Shown here one piece after another: positions 1-12,574 of a stretch of DNA of 46,034 bases (positions are counted from its first letter, which is position 1; each line of letters begins with the position of its first letter). A program made the position numbers and the translations under genes. This stretch comes from Accumulibacter sp. (GTDB lineage: Bacteria > Pseudomonadota > Gammaproteobacteria > Burkholderiales > Rhodocyclaceae), in the NCBI GenBank assembly GCA_031266435.1, contig JAISAZ010000016.1, forward strand, positions 1 through 46,034, given 5' to 3'. Under the pieces are notes generated by a model. That model saw only the letters and a program-made list of their open reading frames with translations, did not search any database and was not told where the DNA came from.

Positions 1-310
1 CGTCACCGAGGGGCGAAATTGTGACGCCATGCGCCGATACCTTGAGCCGTATGCGTTTCAATCCACGCCCCTCGTCACCGAGGGGCGAAATCCGGCTTGT
101 ATCCACGCGCTTTTATCCAGTTTTCCCGGTTTCAATCCACGCCCCTCGTCACCGAGGGGCGAAATATGGAAATATCCTGATTTCCGGTAAGTTCCCTGAA
201 GTTTCAATCCACGCCCCTCGTCACCGAGGGGCGAAATGCAATGATGGCAATGAAGAAAGCCAGCACCGTCCCGGTTTCAATCCACGCCCCTCGTCACCGA
301 GGGGCGAAAT
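1..310 (-). CRISPR. Type I-C CRISPR array, leader-proximal end
   Basis: Four complete 37-nt repeats lie at 55-91, 129-165, 201-237 and 274-310, and the last 19 nt of a fifth lie at 1-19. Spacers of 35, 37, 35 and 36 nt lie at 20-54, 92-128, 166-200 and 238-273. The visible repeats are identical. Each holds the palindrome CGCCCCTCG-GTGA-CGAGGGGCG and, read on the minus strand, ends in GTGGATTGAAAC, the usual type I-C 5' handle region. That orientation means transcription on the minus strand, the same as the adjacent cas genes, so 310 is the leader end where new spacers enter. The array continues beyond the left edge, so its full length is unknown. Confidence 0.98.
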
Positions 311-446
311 GCTTCATTTGCAAGCAACTGAATTATCTACCAAAACTTTGAATTTTGCGCGAACCCTCTTGCGAAGCTTCAAATCGCCGGGGCAAATCGA
401 TCCTTCTTTCTTCATTATCCTTGTAATTTCAATATCTTATGCTCTG
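311..446 (-). promoter_or_regulatory. CRISPR leader
   Basis: This AT-richer stretch lies between the cas2 3' hairpin and the first repeat, and no gene is recognisable in it. By position and composition it is the leader that should carry the array promoter and the signals for spacer insertion. The motif GCGCGAACC occurs at about 347-355 and again in the hairpin arm at 446-454. The exact promoter was not assigned. Confidence 0.75.
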
Positions 447-487
447 CGCGAACCTGCCGGGGTTTGAGCGTCCACTTCAGGTTCGCG
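447..487 (-). terminator. Hairpin directly after cas2
   Basis: Perfect 10-bp arms CGCGAACCTG (447-456) and CAGGTTCGCG (478-487) enclose a 21-nt loop and abut the cas2 stop codon. No T run follows on the minus strand, so it is not a standard intrinsic terminator. It could stabilise the cas mRNA, pause transcription, or separate cas mRNA from the pre-crRNA. Confidence 0.5.
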
Positions 488-778
488 TTATACGACCAGC
501 GGCGCGTCGAAATTGATCGCGCGGAACGCGCCGTATTCGTCCGTTTTGTATCCCTTTGTTTCGGCCATTCGGTAGAAGCGCAAATTATCTTCGTCCAGAT
601 TGATTTCCGCGACAAGATTTCGCCTCAAGGTTTCAAACTGCGCGCGGTCGATCTGGCATTCGAAGACGGATTTTTGTACGCGCTGTCCGACACCCTCGCA
701 CAATTTTGCGACACGCCGCAAGCGACGGCGGCCTTCACGGGTCTCCGTGTTGACGTCGTAGCATACAACGACCAGCAT
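488..778 (-). CDS. cas2: CRISPR-associated endoribonuclease/adaptation protein Cas2
   Basis: The 96-residue protein begins [20 protein letters not shown], the ferredoxin-like first strand with the conserved acidic residue (YDV) of Cas2. It also has the QKSVFEC segment typical of the family, and its length is normal. Cas2 is the dimer at the centre of the Cas1-Cas2 integrase that inserts spacers at the leader end. It is the last cas gene, 2 nt after the cas1 stop, with the array directly downstream. Its ATG lies at 776-778. Confidence 0.95.
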
Positions 779-780
779 GG

Positions 781-1808
781 TCAGCGCATCAGAAACGGCG
801 GGTATTCCGCCAAGTCGCCACGCAAGGTTCGCGCCAGAAGGCGTGCCTGCAAGTGAGGGAGCACGCCCAGAGCGACCGGTTCGTGGAGGAGGGGATGGGA
901 AAGTTTCTCTTGTTTGCGTTCCTGGTAGGCGATCAGCACTGTTTTGCGTGAATCGTCCGCCAGAAGTACGGCGCCGCCCTCGCGCGCGACAAAATCCTTG
1001 GCTGCGATCTGGCCGCGATTGATCAAAGAAAGCGCCAAGCGATCCGCGAGGGCGCGGAACTCCTCCATTATATCCAGCGCCAATGAGGCTCTTCCGGGTC
1101 GGATGGCGTGCAAGAAGCCGATTTGCGGGTCGAGTCCGACGGCCTCTACGGCGGAACGACAGTCGTTCATCAGAAGGGTATAAATGAAAGACAGGAGCGC
1201 GTTGATCGGGTCACGCGGCGGACGCCTGTTGCGGCCTTCCATGCGGAAAGCTTCACGGATATCGGAGCGGATGAGAAAATTCAGAGCGGCGAAATATTGC
1301 CGCGCCGCTTCGCCTTCGATTCCGCGCAAGATGTTTACGTCATTCGCTTCGGGCAAGGCGCGCAGACTGGCCGCCAAGTCTTGCGCGCTTCGGGTCAGAC
1401 GCTGTTGTTCGCTTTCTTCTTTGGCTTCTCTTGCTCCGCGCAAAGAACGTGGCGGCTGTTTTTCAGCTTGCCGGCCACGCAATTGCGAGCGATTGAAAGG
1501 CTCAAACTCTCCTCGCTTGCTGCCGTGTGCTGCGCCTGACGCAAGAGTACGTTGCCCGAGAGCGCGCCCTCCAGCCGCGCTTTGAAATGTCCGTGTTGGT
1601 CCAACAAAATCAGGCTGATTCCCTCTTCAGCCAGCCGGTGCATCAGAGGTGCCGAGAGTCCGACGTGGCCGAAACAAACGATTGCGCCCAGATGGTGCAA
1701 GGGGACGCGTAGCTGAGTTTCTCGTTCCGTTTCCAGGCGCAAGGTGTTGTTGTCCAGATGCAGATAGCTTTCGGGTCGCGTCACGTAGAGAGTGTTCAAA
1801 AGTTCCAC
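781..1808 (-). pseudogene. cas1: CRISPR integrase Cas1, broken by a one-base deletion
   Basis: Two overlapping frames make one Cas1. The N-terminal frame (GTG start at 1806-1808) runs to VAGKLKNSRHVL and then leaves frame, ending near 1395. The C-terminal frame supplies LRGAREAKEESEQQRL, LRGIEGEAARQYF and the catalytic helical domain to 781. The switch lies at the run of three A on the plus strand at 1442-1444. Adding one base there restores a single frame of about 342 aa, the normal type I-C Cas1 length. The N-terminal part lacks the metal-binding residues and the C-terminal part lacks the beta domain, so neither should integrate spacers alone. Sequencing error in a homopolymer or ribosomal slippage cannot be excluded. 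The gene lies between cas4 and cas2. Confidence 0.88.
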
Positions 1809-1809
1809 G

Positions 1810-2460
1810 TCAGTCCTCCGTTGAAAACAGGCGCGCCAAGACGGCGTGGTATTCCGCCTCGTTGTTCAGTGTTTCCGGCTGACAGGCGTTTTTCAAGGAG
1901 CAGGCTCGGCAGCGTACAGGGTCTTTCAGCGGTGGTGGCGAGGTCGTCCGCGCTCGCGCTTCGCGTACCTGGACGACGCACTCTTGCAGTTTTTGCCGCA
2001 ATGTCTCGTCGATCGTCACGACCCGGCGCCGGCGGGAACTCGCGTAATAAAGCGCGCCTTCCGGGACGGGGCGCCCGAACATTTCTTCCAGACAAACAGC
2101 CTGTGCGGCGAGTTGCACATCGTCGCACGCGGCGATGTCGGCGCGTTTGTTGCGCGATCCGTGTTTGTATTCGACGGGGTAGGGCGTCCCGTCCGGCAGA
2201 AATTCCACCACGTCGGCTTTTCCGATCAGCCCCATGCGGTCGCAAAACAGGGGCAGAGCGCGTTCGGTGCGCAGACCGTCGCGCACTTCAAACCCCGGAT
2301 CATCCACGCGCTGGTGCAAGGCCTGCCCGCGAAGCGTAAACAAATTCTCTTCGAACACCTGCTCCAGATGGATGAGCGCATACTGCCGCGGACAGTAGGC
2401 CCAGTGCTGGAGGGCGGAAACCTGGATCGGTTCATATTCCGTGTTCATGTCGAGAGTCAT
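1810..2460 (-). CDS. cas4: CRISPR-associated exonuclease Cas4
   Basis: The 216-aa protein has the RecB-like nuclease layout and the four cysteines of the Fe-S cluster: one in WAYCPRQYAL near residue 23, and three in CRACSLKNAC near the C-terminus. PVEYKHG carries the nuclease acidic/lysine motif. Cas4 trims and orients prespacers by PAM before Cas1-Cas2 integration, a standard part of type I-C adaptation. Its TGA is one base from the cas1 GTG. ATG 2460 was chosen, although ATG 2448 is possible; neither has a strong Shine-Dalgarno. A 278-bp gap separates it from cas7, where I-C genes usually abut. Confidence 0.93.
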   Translation of the reverse strand: MTLDMNTEYEPIQVSALQHWAYCPRQYALIHLEQVFEENLFTLRGQALHQRVDDPGFEVRDGLRTERALPLFCDRMGLIGKADVVEFLPDGTPYPVEYKHGSRNKRADIAACDDVQLAAQAVCLEEMFGRPVPEGALYYASSRRRRVVTIDETLRQKLQECVVQVREARARTTSPPPLKDPVRCRACSLKNACQPETLNNEAEYHAVLARLFSTED

Positions 2461-2738
2461 CAAGCCCTGAAAATGCGCGCAAGGGGGTTCGTTTTTGGAT
2501 GTGCCCAGACTTTTCCGCCAACGAACCCCGACTTATTGTGTTCGTCAAAAAGTAAAACCCACCTTTTTGCTGGGTTGTTGGGTTTGAAGGCGGGTTTTCC
2601 CCACCTTCAAACCCTGTAAAAACAACGCCAAACCAGTCCGGCCTTGGGGTTCTCTTGCTTTTCCTTTCAAAAAAGGACGGTATTTTTTGACGATTCCTTA
2701 CTTCATGGGAGCAAAGTTTATTGTCGAAAACTTGAGCA
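2461..2738 (-). other. Intergenic block of hairpins between cas7 and cas4
   Basis: No gene is seen here. Three inverted repeats are stacked: 2484-2493 with 2520-2529 (10 bp, perfect), 2557-2561 with 2571-2575 (5 bp), and 2580-2590 with 2604-2614 (11 bp perfect, with an inner GGG/CCC pairing). Read on the minus strand, the middle one is followed by TTTTACTTTTT, which resembles a weak terminator. The block is AT-richer than the genes around it. It probably lowers or separates expression of cas4-cas1-cas2 relative to the interference genes, or it is a decayed mobile fragment. Confidence 0.6.
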
Positions 2739-3623
2739 TTATGCGACGCGTTTTATAAGGCTTACTCTCTCGGGCAAGCCGCTCTCGTCGACGCTGACGA
2801 CGTAATCGGAAAACGCGCGCGGTGTTTCGACGCCCTCCTTCAAGCGGATTTTGACCCGGTCAAAGAGTTCGTGCGCGTGCGCGTCGCCGGTTTTCGATTC
2901 GTGTCTGAAAATATACAGACCGCGCGTCGCCATTTCGCCGCGTGCTGCGGAGCGGTCGTGCTCGAACATGTTCTCCAGGGCTTGCCAAAAGAGTTCGAGG
3001 TCTTCTTCGCCAAACCCGGTTTGCTCGGCGAGGAAAGAAGAAACGAAGCCGTGCGCGATGTAGAGACCGTAGGGAACGGTGTGTTTGCGCCCCATCGTGC
3101 GATTGTCGCCTTGCTGCTTTTCCGCTTCGGCTTCCGTTGCCACCGCCATGCGGGTGATCGAGTGTTCCAACGCGACGATCGGGGAGACGGAGCGCGCGAA
3201 AGTGAGTTGAATGGGGCCGCGTACCTGTCCGCAGTTGACGCCGGTCGACATGACCGCGCCGAAAGTGCGTACGTCGTAAAAGTTGGCACACATCCATTGA
3301 CGCGCCTTCTCCACGGTATCGCCGGCGCCTTTGCGTTTTTTGTCGCTTTTCAACTCCTCTTCGGCGCCGATGGCGATATAGGCCTTCTCGTGGGTCTTGT
3401 TGAGGATGGATTTTTCCTTGACGTAGATATCGAAAGGCGGCGTCTCGTTTTTCACGAGCCCGACGAAGTTGCGTACCTTGCGTTTCAACGCTACGTCCGT
3501 CATCAGGCCGTGACCCGTTTCCGCGTCGAGGCGCGGCAAATTCCCCGCGTCGGGGTCGCCGTTGGGGTTCCCGTCCTTCACGTCGAAAATCAATACGAAA
3601 TCATAGCGATTTTTCAGGCTCAT
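2739..3623 (-). CDS. cas7: Type I-C Cascade backbone protein Cas7 (Csd2)
   Basis: The 294-aa protein begins [20 protein letters not shown], then [11 protein letters not shown], the signature opening of Cas7c/Csd2. It also carries FGAVMSTG and the [11 protein letters not shown] segment of the family. Several copies coat the crRNA spacer to form the Cascade filament. Its ATG overlaps the cas8c stop by 4 nt (ATGA), indicating translational coupling. Length is typical and no defect was seen. Confidence 0.96.
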
Positions 3624-5362
3624 TGCGCTTCTCCTTCCTTGGATTGATCGGATGACTTGGGTTTGTAAAATTCCTGACGTTGGTGGTAGTAACCGAGGGC
3701 GAAACGGCCCTGATCCTGCAAATTGAGGTGCTTCGGGAAGTCGTCCAAACCTTCCATGATTTCGCCGAGCAGACGCTCGAAATTCACCGCGCGCCCACGG
3801 TTGGAGAGTTTGGCCAAGTGGTGATTCTTCAGGCGCAAAAGCGTCGTGAAAACGCTGGTCGGCGTGCTGGAAGCCGCGCCGTAATAGCGTTCGCGGATCG
3901 TCGCGTTCAAGCCGGGGTTGGCTTCTTCCTGTATTTTTTCCAGCGTTGCGAAGAGGCGTCCAAGACGATACGCAGGGTTGTCGTTTGCAATGTCCAGCAT
4001 GAAAAAAGACTCCTTGTCAGAAGTAGGGTGATTTATCCGTGAGCGAATCAGGCAGGCTTTGATGATGGCGGCGCGCGAATGCACGACGCGCTGTTCGGCG
4101 CGGCAACGCAAAACGGCCGCATTGAGTAAAGAGGCGGGCAGAGGGCCGCCGTTCAGGATGGCACGCACTGTATCGCCACCCAGATTGGGCGGGATATTGT
4201 CGGCTTTTCGTAAAACCGCGCAGTCGACGAGCAGGCGGAACAGACTAGGAAATTCCGGGTCGTTCGGTCCGCGGACGATTTTCAGATCGACGAACCATTG
4301 CCGTATCCGCGCGGCGATCTCGTGGATTGGCGCGGCGTGCCAGAAACGCACCGCGATCCGCGCCGCGTTCGGGGAGAGTCCGAGCACATGGAAACGGTTC
4401 TGTCCTTTCGCGCTGTCCGGAGCGAATACGCCGGCATGGACCGCGTCGAGCAGTGCGCGCACCTTTGCCGTTTCAGCGTCGGGGTCGTCCTGGCGGTTGA
4501 AGGTTGCGGCAAATCCATCCTCGGCGAGCGCATCGTCCTTTTGCGCCCAGAATACCGTGGAGGCGTCTCCGACCTGGATGCGCTGACGCGAGTTTTTGGC
4601 CAACAAATGGTTGAGCGCCGTGGTGTAGGCGAAAGCCGCCGCCCGACTGACCGGCGCGTTATCGCCCTGCTCCTTGTTGAACGAGGCGAAAGCGTCGAGA
4701 TTGAAGGACACGATATTCGCACCCGAAGACTGCGCGCCCCAAACTCCCTTGATCGCCGTATGCAGTCGTTCGATGGGCGCCTGCTCACCCGTTATCAGGC
4801 AAAGCGCCTGTTTTTCGGCGTCGTCGCCCGAAAAATTGACTGCGGCAATGGCGGGGTTTTGGCAAATCAAATCGCCCTCGCCATAAAGGCGGAAGCTGAC
4901 ATTCGGGTTGCTCTCGCGTATATCGGTCCAAGACGGGTCTGCCTCGAGAGCTTTCCATCCGTGACGCGCGTAAAAACCTTCCAGCGCCTGAATGCCGGCC
5001 GTTTGGCGCGCCCCTTCCGGCAACGCGGCGATTCTCTGGCGAAAAGCGGCGTGTTGTTCCTCAACCCTTTTCGGATTGCCGCGCGTGTCGACTCCCAGCG
5101 CGTATTCGGCGGCATCCCAAAGCAGGTTGGCGGCGACGCCGCTGGTCTTTTTTACGCCTTGTGGAACCCTGTAGCGCCGCGCGGTTTTCTTTTTTTCCTC
5201 GCCCTGGCGGGTATCCGTGATTCCCAAAGGCCGCCCGTCCTTGGAAAGCTCGACGATGAAAGGAATCTCTTTTTCTTCCCACCCGAAATCCGGGAGTCGA
5301 CGCGAAGCGTCGGGGTCGGCCATCCTGCGCTGGTAGTAATCGTGCAATGCCTGAAGAATCAT
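3620..5362 (-). CDS. cas8c: Type I-C Cascade large subunit Cas8c (Csd1)
   Basis: The 580-aa protein begins [13 protein letters not shown] and shows the Csd1 pattern, including [20 protein letters not shown] near residue 220 and a C-terminal segment ending in [16 protein letters not shown]. Cas8c recognises the PAM and starts R-loop formation. In I-C systems an internal start also yields the small subunit Cas11c; a candidate start was not assigned. It overlaps cas5c by 4 nt upstream and cas7 by 4 nt downstream, so the three are translated as a coupled block. The length is normal for Csd1. Confidence 0.95.
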
Positions 5363-6015
5363 CCTCTCACCTCGGCGCTAGAGAGATCGACGACGCCGTT
5401 TTCCATACACACGCGGAAAAATTGCGGTCGAGGGTCCTTGGGGTCGGAAAAGTCCATATCGAAGAGCATCCAGCCCAAATCACGGCTTTCGTCTATTGGG
5501 GGTGTTTCTTTCTTCGAGTCCTCGCCGATCAGCCGGAAGCGCGCGGCGAACTCGCGGCATCCGAGGTAGGGCTGGTTGACGCACTTTCCTTTTTCCGCGC
5601 GCCGTCGGAACATCTCTTGGTACTTGGCTGGATTTTCAATCGCGTCACCGCCGACCGGTTCCAGGTCGGCGTGGATTCGGTACGCAACGTCGCGCAGAAA
5701 AAGCCCCGCGCGCTGCTGGCGGTCTTCCTCAACATAAAGCGCGAGATTGCCGTGACCTGCGTTCATAGCCGATTTGACGCTACCGACCGGGGCCTTGGAC
5801 GCGACCTCGTTGCGCCGCACGCTGATCCAGCGGATGGGCTTGAGGACTTCGATCCGTTTCACTCTCCACCGGATCGCGGGTTTCCAAAAAATGGCCTCAA
5901 AAATAGCTCGCGCCGCAGACGGCGTAATGATGTCGCACGAGACGCGTTCCACCTTCATCTCCGGTCGGGAAAAGCAGGCGAAGTCCCCTGAAACCTCAAG
6001 ACAGAATCGATTCAT
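5359..6015 (-). CDS. cas5c: Type I-C Cas5c (Cas5d), crRNA-processing Cascade subunit
   Basis: The 218-aa protein has the Cas5 RAMP fold signature, beginning MNRFCLEVSGDFACFSRPEM with PSAARAIFEAIFWKP after it. I-C systems lack Cas6, and Cas5c itself cuts pre-crRNA in the repeat, leaving the handle that ends in GAAAC. No cas6 was found here, which fits. It is the first gene of the coupled cas5c-cas8c-cas7 block. The ATG is preceded by GGGAG at a suitable distance and by a promoter-like sequence about 40 nt upstream. Confidence 0.95.
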   Translation of the reverse strand: MNRFCLEVSGDFACFSRPEMKVERVSCDIITPSAARAIFEAIFWKPAIRWRVKRIEVLKPIRWISVRRNEVASKAPVGSVKSAMNAGHGNLALYVEEDRQQRAGLFLRDVAYRIHADLEPVGGDAIENPAKYQEMFRRRAEKGKCVNQPYLGCREFAARFRLIGEDSKKETPPIDESRDLGWMLFDMDFSDPKDPRPQFFRVCMENGVVDLSSAEVRG

Positions 6016-6034
6016 ATCAGATCTCCCATGGATA

Positions 6035-6169
6035 TCACGTCCCTATGATGCCAAGCACTTTACTCCGGTTTTTTTCGAACATCAAGTATTTCCAACAAGA
6101 ACACCAATTAATACACAAACCTTGAAAATTGACTTTCTTAAAAAAAACGCTTATTCTCGCACTTCGCAT
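6035..6169 (-). CDS. Candidate 44-aa ORF in the cas3-cas5c gap
   Basis: On the cas strand an ATG at 6167-6169 follows a strong AAAGGAG (6179-6185) at 9-nt spacing and opens a 44-codon frame ending just before cas5c. The product is not recognised. Its first codons include AGA and ATA, rare in GC-rich genomes, and its composition is unlike neighbouring genes. The Shine-Dalgarno lies within the repeat-like element described at 6176. It may be a toxin-like mini-ORF, a leader, or chance. Confidence 0.3.
   Translation of the reverse strand: MRSARISVFFKKVNFQGLCINWCSCWKYLMFEKNRSKVLGIIGT
6057..6085 (-). promoter_or_regulatory. Probable sigma-70 promoter of cas5c-cas8c-cas7
   Basis: On the minus strand TTGATG (6085-6080) is followed after 17 nt by TAAAGT (6062-6057). 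This predicts a start near 6050, about 35 nt before the cas5c ATG. It shows that the interference genes can be transcribed separately from cas3. Confidence 0.5.
6092..6126 (-). promoter_or_regulatory. Candidate pseudo-protospacer next to the cas5c promoter
   Basis: On the minus strand the trinucleotide TTC (6126-6124), the known type I-C PAM, is followed by AAGGTTTGTGTA. The spacer-like segment starting at 6214 on the plus strand reads AAGGTCGTAGTA. They match at positions 1-5 and 10-12; position 6, a base normally flipped out in type I R-loops, is among the mismatches. Beyond this only scattered or gapped similarity is seen. The site lies directly upstream of the cas5c -35 box. Confidence 0.35.
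6129..6157 (+). promoter_or_regulatory. Sigma-70-like promoter pointing into the repeat-like element
   Basis: TTGACT (6129-6134) and TATTCT (6152-6157) are separated by 17 nt on the plus strand, predicting a start near 6164. This is 12 nt before the degenerate CRISPR repeat at 6176. It faces away from cas5c and is antisense to the operon. Confidence 0.5.
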
Positions 6170-6292
6170 GGCGGTATTCTCCTTTCACGGTATCCGATGG
6201 CGTGGGTTGAAACAAGGTCGTAGTAATTCCTTTGGTATTTCTTTGTTGCCTGTCTGAGCTTTAGGCGTGAGGCTGTTAGTCCAGCCTCGCGC
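6164..6292 (+). ncRNA. Putative crRNA-like regulatory RNA with a degenerate CRISPR repeat
   Basis: The plus strand at 6176-6213 resembles the array repeat as transcribed. Of its last 15 nt, GGCGTGGGTTGAAAC, 14 match the true repeat, including the handle cut out by Cas5c. Upstream the palindrome is replaced by CACG and CGTG arms that could still form a small hairpin. The repeat-like part is followed by a spacer-length segment (6214 to about 6249) and then a hairpin (6265-6292), with a promoter-like sequence in front. By analogy with CreA/CreR-type RNAs found inside other cas operons, it may load into Cascade and repress the cas promoter by partial pairing. Expression and function are inference. 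Confidence 0.45.
6265..6292. terminator. Hairpin between cas3 and the crRNA-like element
   Basis: GCGTGAGGCT (6265-6274) pairs with AGCCTCGCGC (6283-6292) through 10 bp with one G-T wobble and an 8-nt loop. It lies 3 nt past the cas3 stop. On the plus strand it is followed by ACTTTATT, so it could end the plus-strand RNA, and it may also mark the cas3 3' end. There is no strong T run on either side. Confidence 0.45.
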
Positions 6293-6295
6293 ACT

Positions 6296-8662
6296 TTATT
6301 GCACGAAAAGTGACGGCTCCCCCGGAGCACCGTCGACGTTGGCGCCGAGATTCGGATCGTAGAAAAAGTCATTTTTCTCGGATTGCGCGTACAAGCCTGA
6401 ACAGTCGCCGGGGAGTGCTTCGATGTCCCCCAAGCTTACGAGGCGGTCGATGTCGCTCTGATAAAGCGTAACCCCGTAGCGTTGCAGTTTTCGCATGAGC
6501 CAACGATCGGGGCCGTCTTTTTTCAGCTTGCCGAGCAGGGTGTCGATTTTTTTGTCTTCAGAATTTTCGTGGTACCGGACAAAGACCGTCGCGCTGTTTT
6601 TCTCGTCGATGAGACGGAATTTTTCGGCGATTTGCCTGAACGAGATTTCCCCCTTTTTGCCGACTCTCGAAAGCTCGCGGATTCCTTTCGAGTCAAGATC
6701 GGCGTCGGCGTAGAGTTGTTGAAAGTATTCGCTGAAACGCTCCACCTCCAGGGGTTCCGCCCCCGTAGGAAGTTCTTGTAGCAAAATGCGCGCTTTTCCC
6801 TCAGCCATGAGCAAGAGGCCCTTGGGAGAGCGGTGCGGCGCTTCAAAAAGATAAACGTGTCCCTGAGGCAATCGTCCTTCACGGTTGCAGCGGCCTGATG
6901 CTTGGGCGATCGAATCCAGACCCGCCACCGCGCGATAAACTACGGGGAAATCGAGGTCGACCCCAGCTTCGATGAGTTGCGTACTGACCAAGCGGACAGG
7001 CTTGGGCTGCTTTCCCTCTGACAAGGCAAGATAGTGTTCGTCGAGCGCTTTTTTGATGTGCTTGATCACGTCGCTCCGGTGTTGCGCGCACATCAGCCCC
7101 GACAAATGCCACACTTCCACATCCAGTGCCTTGATTTCCCGGTAAAGCGCGCGCGCGTCCGCGCGGCGGTTGACGACGGCCAGCACCGCGTCGTGCGCGG
7201 CGATCTCCGGCGCGATTTCTTCCCAACTTGACGGCTGGCCGAGTTGCTTGGGCAAGTGAATGCTCACTCTCTTCAAATCCGCGTAAAGGCCTGGGACGTC
7301 GTCGATGATTTCGCGGACTTCGCCTGACTTGAAGCCCTTCAGTGCGTGCGCCAAATCGAAGCTGACGCGGGTTTCGAGCGATGGCTGTGTGGCGGTGCAT
7401 AAGACCACAGTAACGCCGTAGTCCTGAACGAGCAGACGCAGCGCGTCGACAATCACCTGCAAATAAGGGAGGGGGAGCAACTGCGCTTCGTCGAGAACGA
7501 TGACGCTGTTCGCAAGATTATGAAGTTTTCGGCAGCGCGATGTTTTCCTTGCGAAAAGGCTCTCGAAAAGCTGGACATTCGTCGTCACGATGAGCGGCGC
7601 GTCCCAATTTTCGGCGGACAGACGCGTGCGGTGATTTTCTTTCGCTTCTTCGACCTCGACATTCGAGTGATGCTCGATGACGTTTTCATCACCGAAAATC
7701 CCTTGGTAGATCTCCGCTGTCTGCTCAATGATGCTGGTGTAGGGGATGGCGTAAACGACCCGGCGTTTCTTGTGGCAAAGGGCGTGCCGCAAGGCGAAAG
7801 CGAGGCTGGAAAGCGTTTTCCCGCCGCCGGTCGGCACGGTCAGGCTGAAGACACCCGGCGCAAGCTCGGACTTGGCGCGGCAGGCGCTGAGCACTCTTGC
7901 GCGCGCGAGATTGACGAGAGTTCCGCTTTTGCCTTCTCCTTCGATTTTCTTGGCCTTGGCGTCCAAGTGCGCCGTCAAGCGCTTTTCCATCTCCTCCAGC
8001 GACATGAAGGTCGACCGCGCCGCCGCTTTGTCGGGCGACATGAAAGCTTCGGTATCGAGGAAATCGGCGTCGACAAGGCAGGAAAACAGCATGCGCACCC
8101 ACAGGGCGAAGCGTCCGGGAATCTCCGCGTCGTTTTTGACGGTACCGATGTCCGGGAGAGGCAAGGTGGGCTTTAGAAGCGAATCGGGAATCGCGGCGGC
8201 GAGCGCGTCGCGGTACTCTTTTTTTGTGTCCCCCTGTTCGAAGCGCGCCGTCAGGCGTTCTGAATCGTCGAGGCCGGTGTGGTGGCCGGCGATCAAATAG
8301 CTCAGAACCTTGGCAATGGCGGGACCTGAGCGCGCGTCGATTTTCGGAAGATACTCTTGTGCCCACAGGGCGCCCGCCGCCGAATGCGTTTTTTCGCGGC
8401 CCGTGACTTTGGTTTCAATGTGCGCGTTGGGGTCGGCGTTTTGACGGATATATCTTTCAAAGCCCTCTCGAAATTTTCCGAGGTCGTGCCACAGAGCGGC
8501 CCATTCCGCCCACGTTCTCGCGCCGAATTCGGCGGCGAAGCCGGCTGAGATTTTTGAGACGCCCAACCCATGTTCAGGCAAAGGATGAAAAATACTTTTC
8601 CCCGGTGTGGTCCCGGGTTTGATATGCGCGATGTAACGAGGTTCGTCTTCTTGATCGTCCAT
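6296..8662 (-). CDS. cas3: CRISPR helicase-nuclease Cas3
   Basis: The 788-aa Cas3 runs from ATG 8662. The N-terminal HD nuclease has HPLPEHGLGVS (about 26-36), LWHDLGKF (58-65), KTHSAAGA (91-98) and AGHHTGLDD near 125-133. The superfamily 2 helicase follows with Walker A PTGGGKT (277-283), DEAQ (391-394), ATQPS, and QASGRCNREG of motif VI. Cas3 is recruited by the Cascade R-loop and degrades the non-target strand. A clear AGGAG lies 8 nt before this ATG, supporting an independent start. Yet the frame stays open upstream into the SMUG1 gene, so a fusion of 1067 aa is also possible. It is separated from cas5c by a 280-bp regulatory gap. Confidence 0.95.
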   Translation of the reverse strand: MDDQEDEPRYIAHIKPGTTPGKSIFHPLPEHGLGVSKISAGFAAEFGARTWAEWAALWHDLGKFREGFERYIRQNADPNAHIETKVTGREKTHSAAGALWAQEYLPKIDARSGPAIAKVLSYLIAGHHTGLDDSERLTARFEQGDTKKEYRDALAAAIPDSLLKPTLPLPDIGTVKNDAEIPGRFALWVRMLFSCLVDADFLDTEAFMSPDKAAARSTFMSLEEMEKRLTAHLDAKAKKIEGEGKSGTLVNLARARVLSACRAKSELAPGVFSLTVPTGGGKTLSSLAFALRHALCHKKRRVVYAIPYTSIIEQTAEIYQGIFGDENVIEHHSNVEVEEAKENHRTRLSAENWDAPLIVTTNVQLFESLFARKTSRCRKLHNLANSVIVLDEAQLLPLPYLQVIVDALRLLVQDYGVTVVLCTATQPSLETRVSFDLAHALKGFKSGEVREIIDDVPGLYADLKRVSIHLPKQLGQPSSWEEIAPEIAAHDAVLAVVNRRADARALYREIKALDVEVWHLSGLMCAQHRSDVIKHIKKALDEHYLALSEGKQPKPVRLVSTQLIEAGVDLDFPVVYRAVAGLDSIAQASGRCNREGRLPQGHVYLFEAPHRSPKGLLLMAEGKARILLQELPTGAEPLEVERFSEYFQQLYADADLDSKGIRELSRVGKKGEISFRQIAEKFRLIDEKNSATVFVRYHENSEDKKIDTLLGKLKKDGPDRWLMRKLQRYGVTLYQSDIDRLVSLGDIEALPGDCSGLYAQSEKNDFFYDPNLGANVDGAPGEPSLFVQ

Positions 8663-9499
8663 GACTTGTGCTCCTGTTGAAAAAGAGAATACGCCAGGGT
8701 TCGGTTCAGGGAGGAGGACGATTTCCCACAAGTGGTTCCCTTGCCGCCAGACTCCGAGTTCGACGAGTTGCTGTATCGGCTTGTCGGGCCAATCGCGGTT
8801 GGCGGCGGGATTCGCGGGGCTGGGGTGCAGGATTTTTCCGATTCGGGGAGGCTTTCCGGCGTTTGTTTCGGAGAGCGCGGCTTTTGCGCGCGCCTCGGCG
8901 AAAGCGCCGACGCCGATGACCCATTCCGGGTCGAGCGTTTCGACGATTTTTCGCAGATGCGCGTCGCAGAGCGCGGTGAGTGCTGTCGTCTCCGAGGGGC
9001 GCAATTTGTCGGGCGTTACGTTTTTCCCGCCGTTGAAAAAGGCCAGAGGGCAGTAATTGGCGACGAAATGGTCGGAGAAGAAAGCGTCCGCCGTGCCGAA
9101 GGCGTTCTTGAAGAGTCCCCAGAGCCTGCGCCCGCTGACTTCGCTGCGTGGGCATTCGAAGCCTTTGACCGGCTGTTTCGGGTTTTCGTTTTCTGGCTTT
9201 GAAACCGGCGCGGAAATCCCCATCCAATCGCGCACCGCGGCGATCTCTCCGAAGGGGACGCCGCACTGCGCCATGCCGAAGGGGCCGGGGTTCATGCCGA
9301 GGAATACGACTTTTTTCCGGGAGTTTCCAAAGCGCCGCAAATAGATTTCGTGCGGCGCCCACGCGTAATCCAGGGGGTTGTAGACGTGCGTGACCGGGGC
9401 GGAAAAACGCAGCGCGGCGACGCCGTTCGAGAGTTCTTTTGCGGCGTCCAGCAGTTTTTGGCTGAAGGCGTTCGGCGGGGAGGTGTGCGTCGGAGGCAT
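8663..9499 (-). CDS. SMUG1-type uracil-DNA glycosylase, in frame with cas3
   Basis: From ATG 9497-9499 the protein reads as a full SMUG1. It has NPLDYAWAPHEIY (41-53), GMNPGPFGMAQCGVPFGE (68-85, with the catalytic-site Asn), SEVSGRRLW (119-127), NYCPLAFF (148-155) and HPSPANPAANRDW (225-237, with the catalytic His). SMUG1 excises uracil and related bases from DNA. The domain ends near residue 251. A further 28 residues (8663-8746) contain no stop before the cas3 ATG, so the unit is either a SMUG1-Cas3 fusion or a gene that lost its stop. The ATG lies 5 nt after the ampG stop, indicating one operon. The tail looks like an intergenic leader that happens to be open. Confidence 0.9.
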
Positions 9500-9504
9500 G
9501 GTTT

Positions 9505-10851
9505 TCAGGTTTTCTCGTTCCAGGGTGCGACGCGCGGCAGGAGCAGCATGCCGGGGATCGCGAGCAGAGTACATAAAAGGAAGAAGTGGAACCAGCCCAT
9601 ATGCTCGACGAGCGTTCCCGCCGACGCGTTGATGAAGGTGCGCGGGACGGCGGCGAGGCTGGAAAAGAGCGCAAATTGGGTTGCGGTGTAGGCGGGGTGG
9701 GTCGCGCGCGCGATGAAGGCGACGAAGGCGGCGGTTCCGAGTCCGACACCGAGCGCTTCGAAGCCGATGACGGCGGCGAGCGCCAGACGCTGTTCGAGTC
9801 CGATTTCCGCTTGCGGTCCGAGGTGGGAAAGCCACGCGAAACCCAGGATCGAAACGATCTGCACGAGTCCGAAGAGGTAGAGCGCGCGGTTGATTCCCAG
9901 GCGCAACATCCAGAGTCCGCCGAAGATTCCGCCGACGAAGGACGGCCAGAACCCGGCGTGCTTGGCGACGAGGCCGATGTCGTTCGGTGAAAATCCCATG
10001 CCGAGGTAAAACGGCGTCGCGAGCGCGGTGCAGAGCGAGTCGCCGAGCTTGTAGAGGAAGATGAAAGCGAGGACGATCGCGGCGTCTTGCCAGCCCCGGC
10101 GTCCGATGAATTCGGTGAAAGGCAGGACGACCGCGTCGCGCAGGGTACGCGGACTCGAACGGTCGAGCGGCGGTTCGGCGACGAGGAGCGACACGACGGC
10201 ACCGGGGAGCATGAAGGCCGCGGTGATCCAGAAAACCGTGTTCCACGGCAGGTGACCGGAGAGGACCATCGAGAGCGAACCGGGGATGAAGCCGGCGATG
10301 CGGTAGGCGTTGACGTGCACCGAATTGCCGAGTCCGAGTTCATTTTCGTCGAGGATTTCGCGCCGGAAGGCGTCAAGCGCGATATCCTGCGTCGCCGAGA
10401 GGAGCGCGACGACGATGGCGAGGTGGCAGACGGGGTGCGTGAAGAGAAAGGCGAGGTCTTCCGCGAAACGCGGGAGCGCGTGGGAAAGCAGGAGGGCGGG
10501 ATCCTCAAGGCTTGGGGAGGGAATCGCTTCGGGGAGGGACTGCATGCCGAGGAAGCCGATCGCCAGGAAAAGTCCGGCCTGCGTGAGGAGCATCCAACCC
10601 CGCCGGCGTCCGAAACCCGGCGGCGCGAAACGGTCGAGCAGCGGCGCCCAGAGGAATTTCCACGTATAGGGCAACTGCGTCAAGGCGAGCAGGCCGACCC
10701 TGGTGAGGCTGAGACCTTCCATCGTCAGCCACGCGGGGACCAGGTTGAGCAGAAGGTAGAGCGGAAGTCCCGAACTGAAGCCGGTGAAAACGCAGACGAG
10801 CATTTTGCGCGTCATCAACACGGCAAGCCAGGCCGGAGGCCTGAAGCTCAT
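9505..10851 (-). CDS. ampG: AmpG-family major facilitator transporter
   Basis: The 448-aa membrane protein begins [20 protein letters not shown]. The AmpG signatures FSSGLPLYLLLNLVPAWLT and LPYTWKFLWAPLLDRFAPPG follow in the first third, with about 12 hydrophobic segments in all. AmpG imports anhydro-muropeptides from the periplasm for cell-wall recycling and can influence beta-lactamase induction. The ATG at 10849-10851 overlaps the metW TGA (ATGA), so longer upstream extensions were rejected. In betaproteobacteria ampG commonly follows metXW. It is followed 5 nt later by the SMUG1 gene. Confidence 0.9.
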   Translation of the reverse strand: MSFRPPAWLAVLMTRKMLVCVFTGFSSGLPLYLLLNLVPAWLTMEGLSLTRVGLLALTQLPYTWKFLWAPLLDRFAPPGFGRRRGWMLLTQAGLFLAIGFLGMQSLPEAIPSPSLEDPALLLSHALPRFAEDLAFLFTHPVCHLAIVVALLSATQDIALDAFRREILDENELGLGNSVHVNAYRIAGFIPGSLSMVLSGHLPWNTVFWITAAFMLPGAVVSLLVAEPPLDRSSPRTLRDAVVLPFTEFIGRRGWQDAAIVLAFIFLYKLGDSLCTALATPFYLGMGFSPNDIGLVAKHAGFWPSFVGGIFGGLWMLRLGINRALYLFGLVQIVSILGFAWLSHLGPQAEIGLEQRLALAAVIGFEALGVGLGTAAFVAFIARATHPAYTATQFALFSSLAAVPRTFINASAGTLVEHMGWFHFFLLCTLLAIPGMLLLPRVAPWNEKT

Positions 10852-11468
10852 TCCGGTCTCCGGCCGAGGAGGTAGAAAGCCAGACTGCCGTTCAGGTTCG
10901 GGTCGTCGGTCACGCGGCGCCCGGTCTCGTCGAAGGCGAGCTTTTCGCGGATTTCGATGCCAAGCTGGTCGCAGAGCGCTTCGAAATCGACGAGTGTGAA
11001 AAAGCGGACGTTCGGCGTGTCGTACCATTCGTAGGGCAGGTCGGGCGAGACCGGCATATGCCCTTTTGCGACGGCCGAGCGATTCGTCCGGTAGGCGAAA
11101 TTCGGGAAACTCACGACGGCTTCTCCGGCGACGCGCAGCATTTCAGCGAGGATGCGTTCGGTCGCGTGCATCGCCTGGAGCGCCTGTGAAATGATCGCGT
11201 GGTCGAAGGAAAGGTCTTCAAAACCCGACAGCCCGCCTTCGATATCGATCTGGAGGACATTGACGCCGTTGCGGACGCATTGAAGGACGCTCTGCGGGTT
11301 GATCTCGACGCCGCAACCTTCGACGCGCTTGGTCTCGCTCAAATAGCGTAGCAGATTCCCGTCGCCGCAGCCCAGGTCGAGAACGCGCTCGCCCGCCGGA
11401 ATCCAGTGGGCGATGATGTCGAAGTCGAAACGTTCGCGTTCGCGCTTCGAAAGCTTGTGGATGTTCAT
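10848..11468 (-). CDS. metW: Methionine biosynthesis protein MetW
   Basis: The 206-aa protein is a class I methyltransferase-fold protein with the SAM-binding motif [12 protein letters not shown] (29-40). The MetW-type sequences [15 protein letters not shown] and [14 protein letters not shown] follow, with [14 protein letters not shown] after them. MetW partners MetX in homoserine acylation in many proteobacteria, and its exact activity is not settled. It overlaps metX by 4 nt and ampG by 4 nt, so the three are a tight operon. Confidence 0.95.
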
Positions 11469-12574
11469 AAGCGGATGTTCTCGAAGTAGGCGCGCAGGAC
11501 GGCGTGGTAATGCGGGTCGGCGAGCAGAAACGAGTCGTGGCCGGCGTCGCAGTCGACATTCGCGTAGGAGACGCGCCGGCGGTTCTTCATCAGAGCGAAG
11601 ACGATTTCGCGCGAGCGCGCGGGAGAGAAGCGCCAGTCGGTCGTGAAGCTGACGATCAGAAAATCCGCGCGGGCACTCGCCAGCGCGGCTGAAAGGTCGC
11701 CGTCATGGTCGTAGGCCGGGTCGAAGTAATCGAGCGCCTTGGTCGTCGTCAAATAGGTATTGGCGTCGAAGAAGGCCGAAAACTTGCTGCCCTGGTGGCG
11801 CAGATACGATTCGACCTCGAAATTAACGTCGTAGCTGAACTGATATTCGCCTTTCGAAAGCTGCCGGCCGAATTTATCGCCCATCTGGCTGTCCGAAAGG
11901 TAGGTGATGTGTCCGATCATCCGCGCGAGGCGCAAGCCGTTCGAAGGCACGACGCCGTATTCGGCGTAATGTCCGCCGTGGAAATTCGTGTCGGAAAGAA
12001 TCGCCTGACGCGCGACCTCGTTGAACGCGATGTTTTGCGCCGTCAGCTTCGGCGTGGCGGCGATCGCTATGACGTGCCGGAGGCGGTCCGGAAAACGCAT
12101 CGCCCATTCGAGCGCCTGCATTCCGCCCAGGCTTCCGCCGACGACGGCGGCCCAGGTTTCGATTCCGAGGTGATCCGCCAGACGCGCCTGCGCCTGTACC
12201 CAGTCTTCGACGAGAACGAGCGGGAAATCCGCCCCATAGCGCCGCCCTGTTTCCGGGTTGATCGAAAGCGGCCCCGTCGAGCCGTAACAGCCGCCGAGGT
12301 TGTTGACGCCGACGACGAAAAAGCGGCGCGTGTCGAGCGGTTTGCCCGGTCCGATCAGATTGTCCCACCAGCCGATCTCGTCGGGATTGTCGGCGGTGAC
12401 CCCCGCGAGATGGTGATTCCCGGAAAGCGCGTGGCAGACGAGGACCGCGTTCGAGCGAGACGCGTTGAGCGTCCCGTAAGTCTCATAGACGAGTTCGAAC
12501 GCCGGAAGCGTAACGCCGCTCTTGAGGCGGAGCGGCGCGTCGGAACCAAAGCGTTGCGGCGCGACGACGCCCAC
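11465..12574 (-). CDS. metX: Homoserine O-acyltransferase MetX
   Basis: The 369-aa alpha/beta hydrolase acylates homoserine, the first committed step of methionine synthesis. ELVYETYG, the nucleophile motif [14 protein letters not shown] (Ser near 148), and the Asp/His pair in DCDAGHDSF near 341-349 are present. The GTG start at 12572-12574 is preceded by AGGA at a good distance, giving the usual MetX beginning GVVAPQRF. MetX members may use acetyl-CoA or succinyl-CoA, and sequence inspection alone does not settle which. It is the first gene of the metX-metW-ampG-SMUG1-cas3 run. Confidence 0.94.

Follow-up and report, generated by a model that had tools for sequence, protein, structure and literature searches.

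A degenerate CRISPR repeat end in the cas3–cas5c gap of a type I-C locus, its recurrence in related loci, and a putative CreR-type guide gene

The gap between cas3 and cas5c in a type I-C CRISPR–Cas locus of Accumulibacter sp. holds a degenerate CRISPR repeat end, repeat ends recur at the same place in related loci, and in those relatives the segment behind the repeat end bears a pairing signature to nearby sites. The stretch that we analyzed, 46,034 nucleotides in length (hereafter, the window), is contig C83 of a draft genome of 2.66 Mb, and its copy of the element is toxin-less or decayed. We propose, with rather better than even confidence, that type I-C systems of Pseudomonadota often hold a Cas5c-processed guide gene in this gap, through which Cascade represses either peptides of about 40–57 residues that are probably single-span membrane proteins (an addiction module) or cas genes, that loss of the peptide converts the first arrangement to the second, and that the window is a toxin-less derivative. 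For the window itself our leading but tentative reading, which we hold at close to even confidence, is that 6199–6292 (+) is a type I-C CreR-type guide derived from a CreTA module.

The locus comprises an array, cas2, cas1, cas4, cas7c, cas8c, cas5c and cas3, all on the minus strand, and the Cas3, Cas5c, Cas8c and Cas7c frames are open, each matching its own profile (Table 1). The cas1 gene (781–1808, −) is broken into two overlapping frames (781–1482 and 1395–1808), each matching Cas1c, which may reflect genuine decay or an error in the draft. A match to PF03167 (uracil-DNA-glycosylase-like) lies in a frame that runs without a stop into cas3 (6296–9499, −, 1067 codons); the ATG of cas3 itself, at 8662, is preceded by GGAG, which resembles a ribosome site. 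Rfam gave no match within positions 1–12000 of the window.

Table 1 Features of the type I-C locus and of its cas3–cas5c gap (positions in the window)
Feature	Position	Strand	Remarks
CRISPR array	1..310	−	type I-C; repeat ATTTCGCCCCTCGGTGACGAGGGGCGTGGATTGAAAC
cas7c	2739..3623	−	profile match
cas8c	3620..5362	−	profile match
cas5c	5359..6015	−	profile match; expected processing enzyme
44-codon ORF, AAAGGAG ribosome site	6035..6169	−	possible but unsupported toxin
Candidate cas5c promoter TTGATG-17-TAAAGT	6057..6085	−	8/12, by eye; absent from scan list
Candidate Cascade target: PAM TTC (6126–6124) and AAGGT (6123–6119), protospacer 6123–6088	6088..6126	−	score 7/10
Candidate guide-RNA promoter TTGACT-17-TATTCT	6129..6157	+	9/12; weak against shuffles
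Upstream part of degenerate repeat	6177..6198	+	stem poorly kept
Repeat-derived 5′ handle (psiR end)	6199..6213	+	14/15 identical to array repeat end
Putative spacer-like guide (psiS), AAGGTCGTAGTAATTCC...	6214..6249	+	assigned from its place directly 3′ of the handle
Closing hairpin, intrinsic-terminator-like	6265..6292	+	11 pairs
cas3	6296..8662	−	profile match

The gap between the cas5c start at 6015 and the cas3 stop at 6296 measures 280 bp (6016–6295), in agreement with the non-coding gap described in the original prediction, which was made from the DNA letters and their open reading frames. The match on which that prediction turned holds as well: the handle region reads GGCGTGGGTTGAAAC and the array repeat ends in GGCGTGGATTGAAAC. 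Cas5c, which presumably leaves an 11-nt tag, is predicted to cut before 6203, giving TGGGTTGAAAC. The judgement that such a match was very unlikely to arise by chance is borne out by the 13-base handle pattern CGHGGRTTGAAAC, which the 2.66-Mb genome contains 19 times, with 14 copies in arrays (10 in an array on contig C21 and 4 in the window array), one in the gap and four elsewhere, while the same pattern read backwards, as a control, does not occur in that genome. L034, L037 and L145, which are mutually related and have strong targets, also carry the G form of the handle (GTGGGTTGAAAC). The upstream part of the element has fared less well: over the leading 22 of its 37 nt it is identical to the array repeat at 9 positions, and the 37-nt degenerate repeat folds no better than its shuffles (z 0.0). 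Of ten relatives whose handle is antisense to cas5, nine fold at a lower z than the window repeat, but several whose handle shares the cas5 strand (L031, L034, L035 and L037) likewise show no clear stem. The 600 bp before the window cas5c contain one handle (≤2 mismatches), not the two repeats of a mini-array.

Of the four handle copies outside the arrays and the gap, a stem accompanies two (L160 and L161); L162 falls within a coding frame, as judged by eye, and the fourth is on contig C75. L160 (C109:17865) consists of a repeat-like hairpin and an exact handle, GCGTGGATTGAAAC, ending 1 nt before the start of hisA (a gene assigned by eye); this element is kept in a genome of the same genus, G216 (L168), in which a Cas5c search found none. 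L161 (C110:67888) is a stand-alone stem, CGTCCGGCCCTGCCGGACG, with TGGATTGAAAC, outside the arrays, and the segment that follows it partly recurs, with mismatches, at C94:852. The second array (L167, C21:1–1170) mostly carries a different repeat variant, with close kin of the window repeat near its end.

We looked for the handle in other type I-C loci by Cas5c searches of the family, first in 199 genomes (45 with a match) and then in 395 (80 with a match), and by a further Cas5c search of wider genome contigs, from which the best 80 of 588 confirmed stretches were taken. Some family matches, mostly weak, were left out, and 144 loci were oriented. Enough upstream sequence was available for 142 of these; 132 were distinct in a shift-tolerant test (L039 and L120 are one locus shifted by 3 bases, and L109 is L017 again), and the cas3 end could be mapped in 129, with L138, L140 and L143 dropped from the gap count for want of a cas3 hit. 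Related but non-identical loci were counted apart (e.g., L034/L037/L145, L031/L035/L139 and L029/L032).

One of the two outcomes named as refuting the original prediction, a handle sequence that relatives do not conserve, did not come about. Among the 129 distinct loci, drawn in part from the best 80 of the 588 stretches, a handle with at most one mismatch to GTGGATTGAAAC was present in 28 of the 32 cas3–cas5c gaps of 150–600 bp and in none of the 97 other gaps (0/82 below 60 bp, 0/9 of 60–149 bp and 0/6 above 600 bp). One of the four long-gap exceptions, L081, has a handle with two mismatches, and no handle was seen in L074, L128 or L144. For background, at ≤2 mismatches, 26 of the first 110 loci had a hit in 64,794 upstream bases, and 13 hits fell in 129,022 downstream bases of the same loci; two-mismatch handles in coding sequence or short gaps (L012, L016, L038, L087 and L113/L147) were not counted as modules. 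A DNA search with the gap itself in 394 other genomes of the family found no similar gap. Chance likeness, or a stray repeat without use, is a very improbable explanation of the element in the window: its own genome does hold four further handle-like copies outside both arrays, but the element sits in the very gap where 28 of the 32 distinct long-gap loci, and none of the 97 others, have such a handle.

The gap also houses other small genes in some loci (L023/L082), with a PIN/VapC-like ORF recognized by eye in L023, and GIY-YIG-like ORFs were seen by eye in the cas3–cas5c gaps of L128 and L144. In L142, two repeat ends, 148 and 96 bp before cas5c, flank a short guide, and the second has a full stem; this mini-array-like CreA is fitting for an origin from a CRISPR array.

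TTC is the PAM of type I-C systems. For 33 modules (the window and near-duplicates included), the guide segment, taken as the 36 nt that follow the handle, was compared with TTC or TTT sites within 560 bp of cas5c, and matches were counted at guide positions 1–5 and 7–11 (maximum 10), ignoring positions 6 and 12. TTT was admitted as a second PAM after a TTC-only search of 20 modules had left L031 and L104 without a good site; it is used by L031, L104 and L139, and the shuffle controls admit it likewise. The best-scoring site had at least five leading seed matches in 32 of the 33 modules, and 30 of the 33 scored at least 8, compared to 1.6% of 3300 shuffled guides. The modules below 8 were the window (7), L033 (7) and L122 (5). 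When guides were paired with the gaps of other modules (20 modules, TTC only), 6 of 370 combinations scored at least 8; four of these, with a score of 10, are taken to join the related L029 and L032 to L036, combinations that the control did not exclude.

A match profile by guide position was drawn up over 28 relatives. This set leaves out the window, L120 and L132, drops L032 and L145 as near-duplicates, and enters L033 at its TTC site (six leading matches) despite a higher-scoring TTT site. Matches at positions 1–5 (28/28) and 7–11 (20–25/28) are both inflated by the selection of the best site, and positions 6 (9/28), 12 (8/28) and 18 (7/28) are at chance level. Between the last two, positions 13 (20/28), 14 (22/28) and 15–17 (15/28) match more often, and positions 12–18 played no part in site selection. 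The difference between positions 12 and 18 (15/56) and positions 13–17 (87/140) is significant (Fisher's exact test, P = 6 × 10−6) and persists with one locus per group (20 loci; 12/40 versus 64/100, P = 2.5 × 10−4). A dip at every sixth base is what Cascade pairing would give and is not expected from DNA homology alone. CreA has been described as pairing at positions 1–5 and 7–11, with positions 6 and 12 unpaired (PMC8501985). Near the target sites of the relatives, the best promoter matches reached 7–9/12 in 15 loci under permissive rules and with no control, so that the overlap of target sites with promoters is suggestive only.

Fifteen distinct relatives have the handle antisense to cas5c, and in 12 of them, L071 with its split frame included, a hydrophobic frame stands between target and cas5c. 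Most of the 11 aligned peptides (40–57 residues, the start codons picked by eye) begin with a segment that looks amphipathic and have in common an R/C-F/Y-Y/F/W motif and a single hydrophobic stretch, as judged by hydropathy. The creT-like ORF is broken into two frames in L071 and L132, which keep handle and target match, possibly toxin loss under way. The three relatives of this orientation without a hydrophobic frame (L096, L122 and L124) have their targets 44–56 bp from cas5c, as a CreR would need. The handle shares the strand of cas5c in another 14 distinct relatives, six of which (L031, L034, L035, L037, L139 and L142) carry a different hydrophobic peptide. A tiny ORF that starts MARTHM or MAGTHM follows a good ribosome site in L029, L032, L036 and L138 (by eye in L029 and L032) and may be an RNA-type CreT; an AGA codon is present in the tiny ORF of L029, L032 and L036. 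The ORF in the L104 gap is hydrophilic, and the gaps of L105 and L146, the latter from the genus of the window, contain no toxin-like ORF. Over all five toxin-less relatives (L122, L124, L096, L105 and L146), targets lie 44–143 bp before cas5c. Six of the peptides and the 44-codon ORF of the window found no match in Pfam (E up to 1) or NCBIfam, and neither did the L104 ORF in Pfam.

The segment between handle and hairpin in the window, described originally as spacer-length, is 51 nt long and exceeds the 35–37 nt of the array spacers. The promoter-like sequence is where it had been placed, but we regard it as weak because the scan found one site where shuffles gave a mean of 0.6. The 43-nt stretch around the closing hairpin (6258–6300) folds at z −5.7; the hairpin could just as well terminate cas3. 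The larger claim of a stand-alone crRNA-like gene, for which the original prediction gave neither target nor role, is strongly supported by comparison, through recurrence of the handle and the matches of the relatives' spacers to nearby PAM sites. The copy in the window, with its weak target, poor repeat hairpin and no recognized toxin, may no longer work.

The target in the window has five leading matches and, in contrast to most relatives, mismatches at positions 7–9. Shuffled guides equal it in 0.74% of 5000 trials with TTC sites (P = 0.0074) and in 2.3% with TTC or TTT sites (P = 0.023), and it is one of only three TTC sites with five leading matches in the 46-kb window. Handle and target are 87 bp apart, inside the range of 57–89 bp seen in 14 of the 15 relatives with the same handle orientation, but the target is on the strand opposite to theirs. 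The 36-bp protospacer takes up the interval from the candidate −35 of the guide promoter (6129) to the by-eye candidate −35 of cas5c (6085). A search of the genome for targets in trans (PAM and seed, ≤3 mismatches) returned the element itself (two mismatches) and five three-mismatch sites; the reversed control returned one site.

From these data we infer a mechanism in which the guide RNA would be transcribed from the plus strand, away from cas5c, after which Cas5c would trim it to a guide bearing an 11-nt handle and the product would be loaded into Cascade. In the relatives, the guide would send Cascade to a nearby PAM-flanked, partly matching site, and the pairing formed there, presumably not long enough to permit cleavage, would suffice to block transcription. 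A blocked site in front of the small hydrophobic-peptide ORF would constitute a CreTA addiction module, and in loci without a toxin-like ORF a blocked site in front of cas5c would constitute a CreR. In the window, Cascade at 6126–6088 would damp both the guide promoter and the cas5c promoter, and if Cascade were titrated or disabled, cas expression would rise.

Given the seed site and its spacing from the handle, a protospacer that spans the room between the two candidate −35s, the lack of a creT profile match, and a weak stem that some strong-target relatives show as well, we favor the CreR-type role for the window, with decay as its chief rival. The window would then be a relic of a former full CreTA module like L131 or L039, having lost its toxin, promoter and strong target and retaining a repeat end without function. 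We judge this unlikely, although several features lean toward it. The creT profile matched no frame of the window gap (best E 4.6), the repeat hairpin and target are weak, handle and cas5c are 198 bp apart compared to 245–335 bp in the 12 same-orientation relatives with a hydrophobic ORF, and the cas1 of the locus is in two frames. A functionless remnant fits less well with a handle that keeps 11 of 12 bases, in the variant of the strong-target loci L034, L037 and L145, with the promoter-like and terminator-like elements that remain, or with a seed site that is still there and is reached by 0.7–2.3% of shuffled guides. The missing stem loses weight too, as the strong-target relatives L034, L035 and L037 lack one.

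More doubtful still is a CreTA with a toxin that we did not recognize, in which the guide would repress the 44-codon ORF, of RNA type or encoding a short peptide, with Cascade as a roadblock inside the ORF. The ORF occupies −154 to −19, close to the −153 to −18 of the L131 creT, has a good ribosome site (5/6) and begins AUG CGA AGU GCG AGA AUA, its early AGA and AUA recalling the tRNA-sequestering CreT (PMC8501985), and the Acinetobacter target is also downstream of the toxin promoter (PMC10097628). Its product is not hydrophobic, however, with a best 19-residue hydropathy mean of 0.71 compared to about 1.4–2.9 in the relatives; it has no profile match, and the scan lists no promoter upstream on its strand. 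No ORF of the window gap is hydrophobic or matches the creT profile, but the gap does hold this 44-codon ORF with its ribosome site.

The favored CreR-type reading can be set beside known systems. The type I-E CreTA of Citrobacter rodentium likewise occupies the stretch from cas3 to the first Cascade gene; its creA lies upstream of the toxin and is read from the other strand, the geometry of the I-C modules, and its PAM-marked target is at the promoter of a toxin that needs translation. It differs in subtype, its ATG PAM and its use of Cas6, where the loci studied here have TTC and Cas5c and the window has no recognizable toxin (PMC12055562). The type I-F CreTA of Acinetobacter, in the cas3–csy1 gap, similarly has a mini-ORF divergent from creA and a toxin repressed by a Cascade-type effector, but its toxin is an RNA, it has two repeats and a 20-nt guide, and its target is downstream of the toxin promoter (PMC10097628). 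The type I-B modules of Haloarcula hispanica and Halobacterium hubeiense share the degenerate repeat and pairing at 1–5 and 7–11 beside TTC, and differ in being archaeal, in using Cas6 and in having tRNA-sequestering RNA toxins (PMC8501985, PMC9458426). CreR, known from types I and V-A, is a toxin-less crRNA-like RNA with its target at the cas promoter, as proposed here; the available text of a review of CreR mentions no I-C case and no place beside CreTA-bearing relatives (PMC12737573). Racr, an RNA anti-CRISPR, also has a solitary repeat but is encoded by phages, and the element here is in a host cas operon, between cas3 and cas5c (PMC10651486). Like CreR and CreTA, the window element is a crRNA-like gene with a repeat-derived handle adjoining a cas operon; behind its target we recognized no toxin gene of the kind that defines CreTA, the 44-codon ORF notwithstanding.

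In the literature found, CreTA modules belong to types I-B, I-E and I-F (PMC8501985, PMC9458426, PMC12055562, PMC10097628), and one report notes that earlier work had come upon CreTA beside Class 1 systems of diverse kinds but gives no subtypes (PMC10097628). Among the literature matches listed, a set outside which the primary CreTA and CreR papers fall, no title or opening of an abstract named an I-C module of either kind. The I-C setting, with processing by Cas5c and hydrophobic-peptide toxins, is thus new as far as the literature found, in the parts available, shows. If our proposal is correct, CRISPR-guided self-control extends to type I-C, with Cas5c and not Cas6 making the guide, and hydrophobic peptides are an added toxin family of such control. 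A cas3–cas5c gap of 150–600 bp provides a simple rule for finding these elements, and the conversion of CreTA to CreR becomes testable inside one bacterial family. Such guards, if real, would explain how effector genes persist while cas1 may decay.
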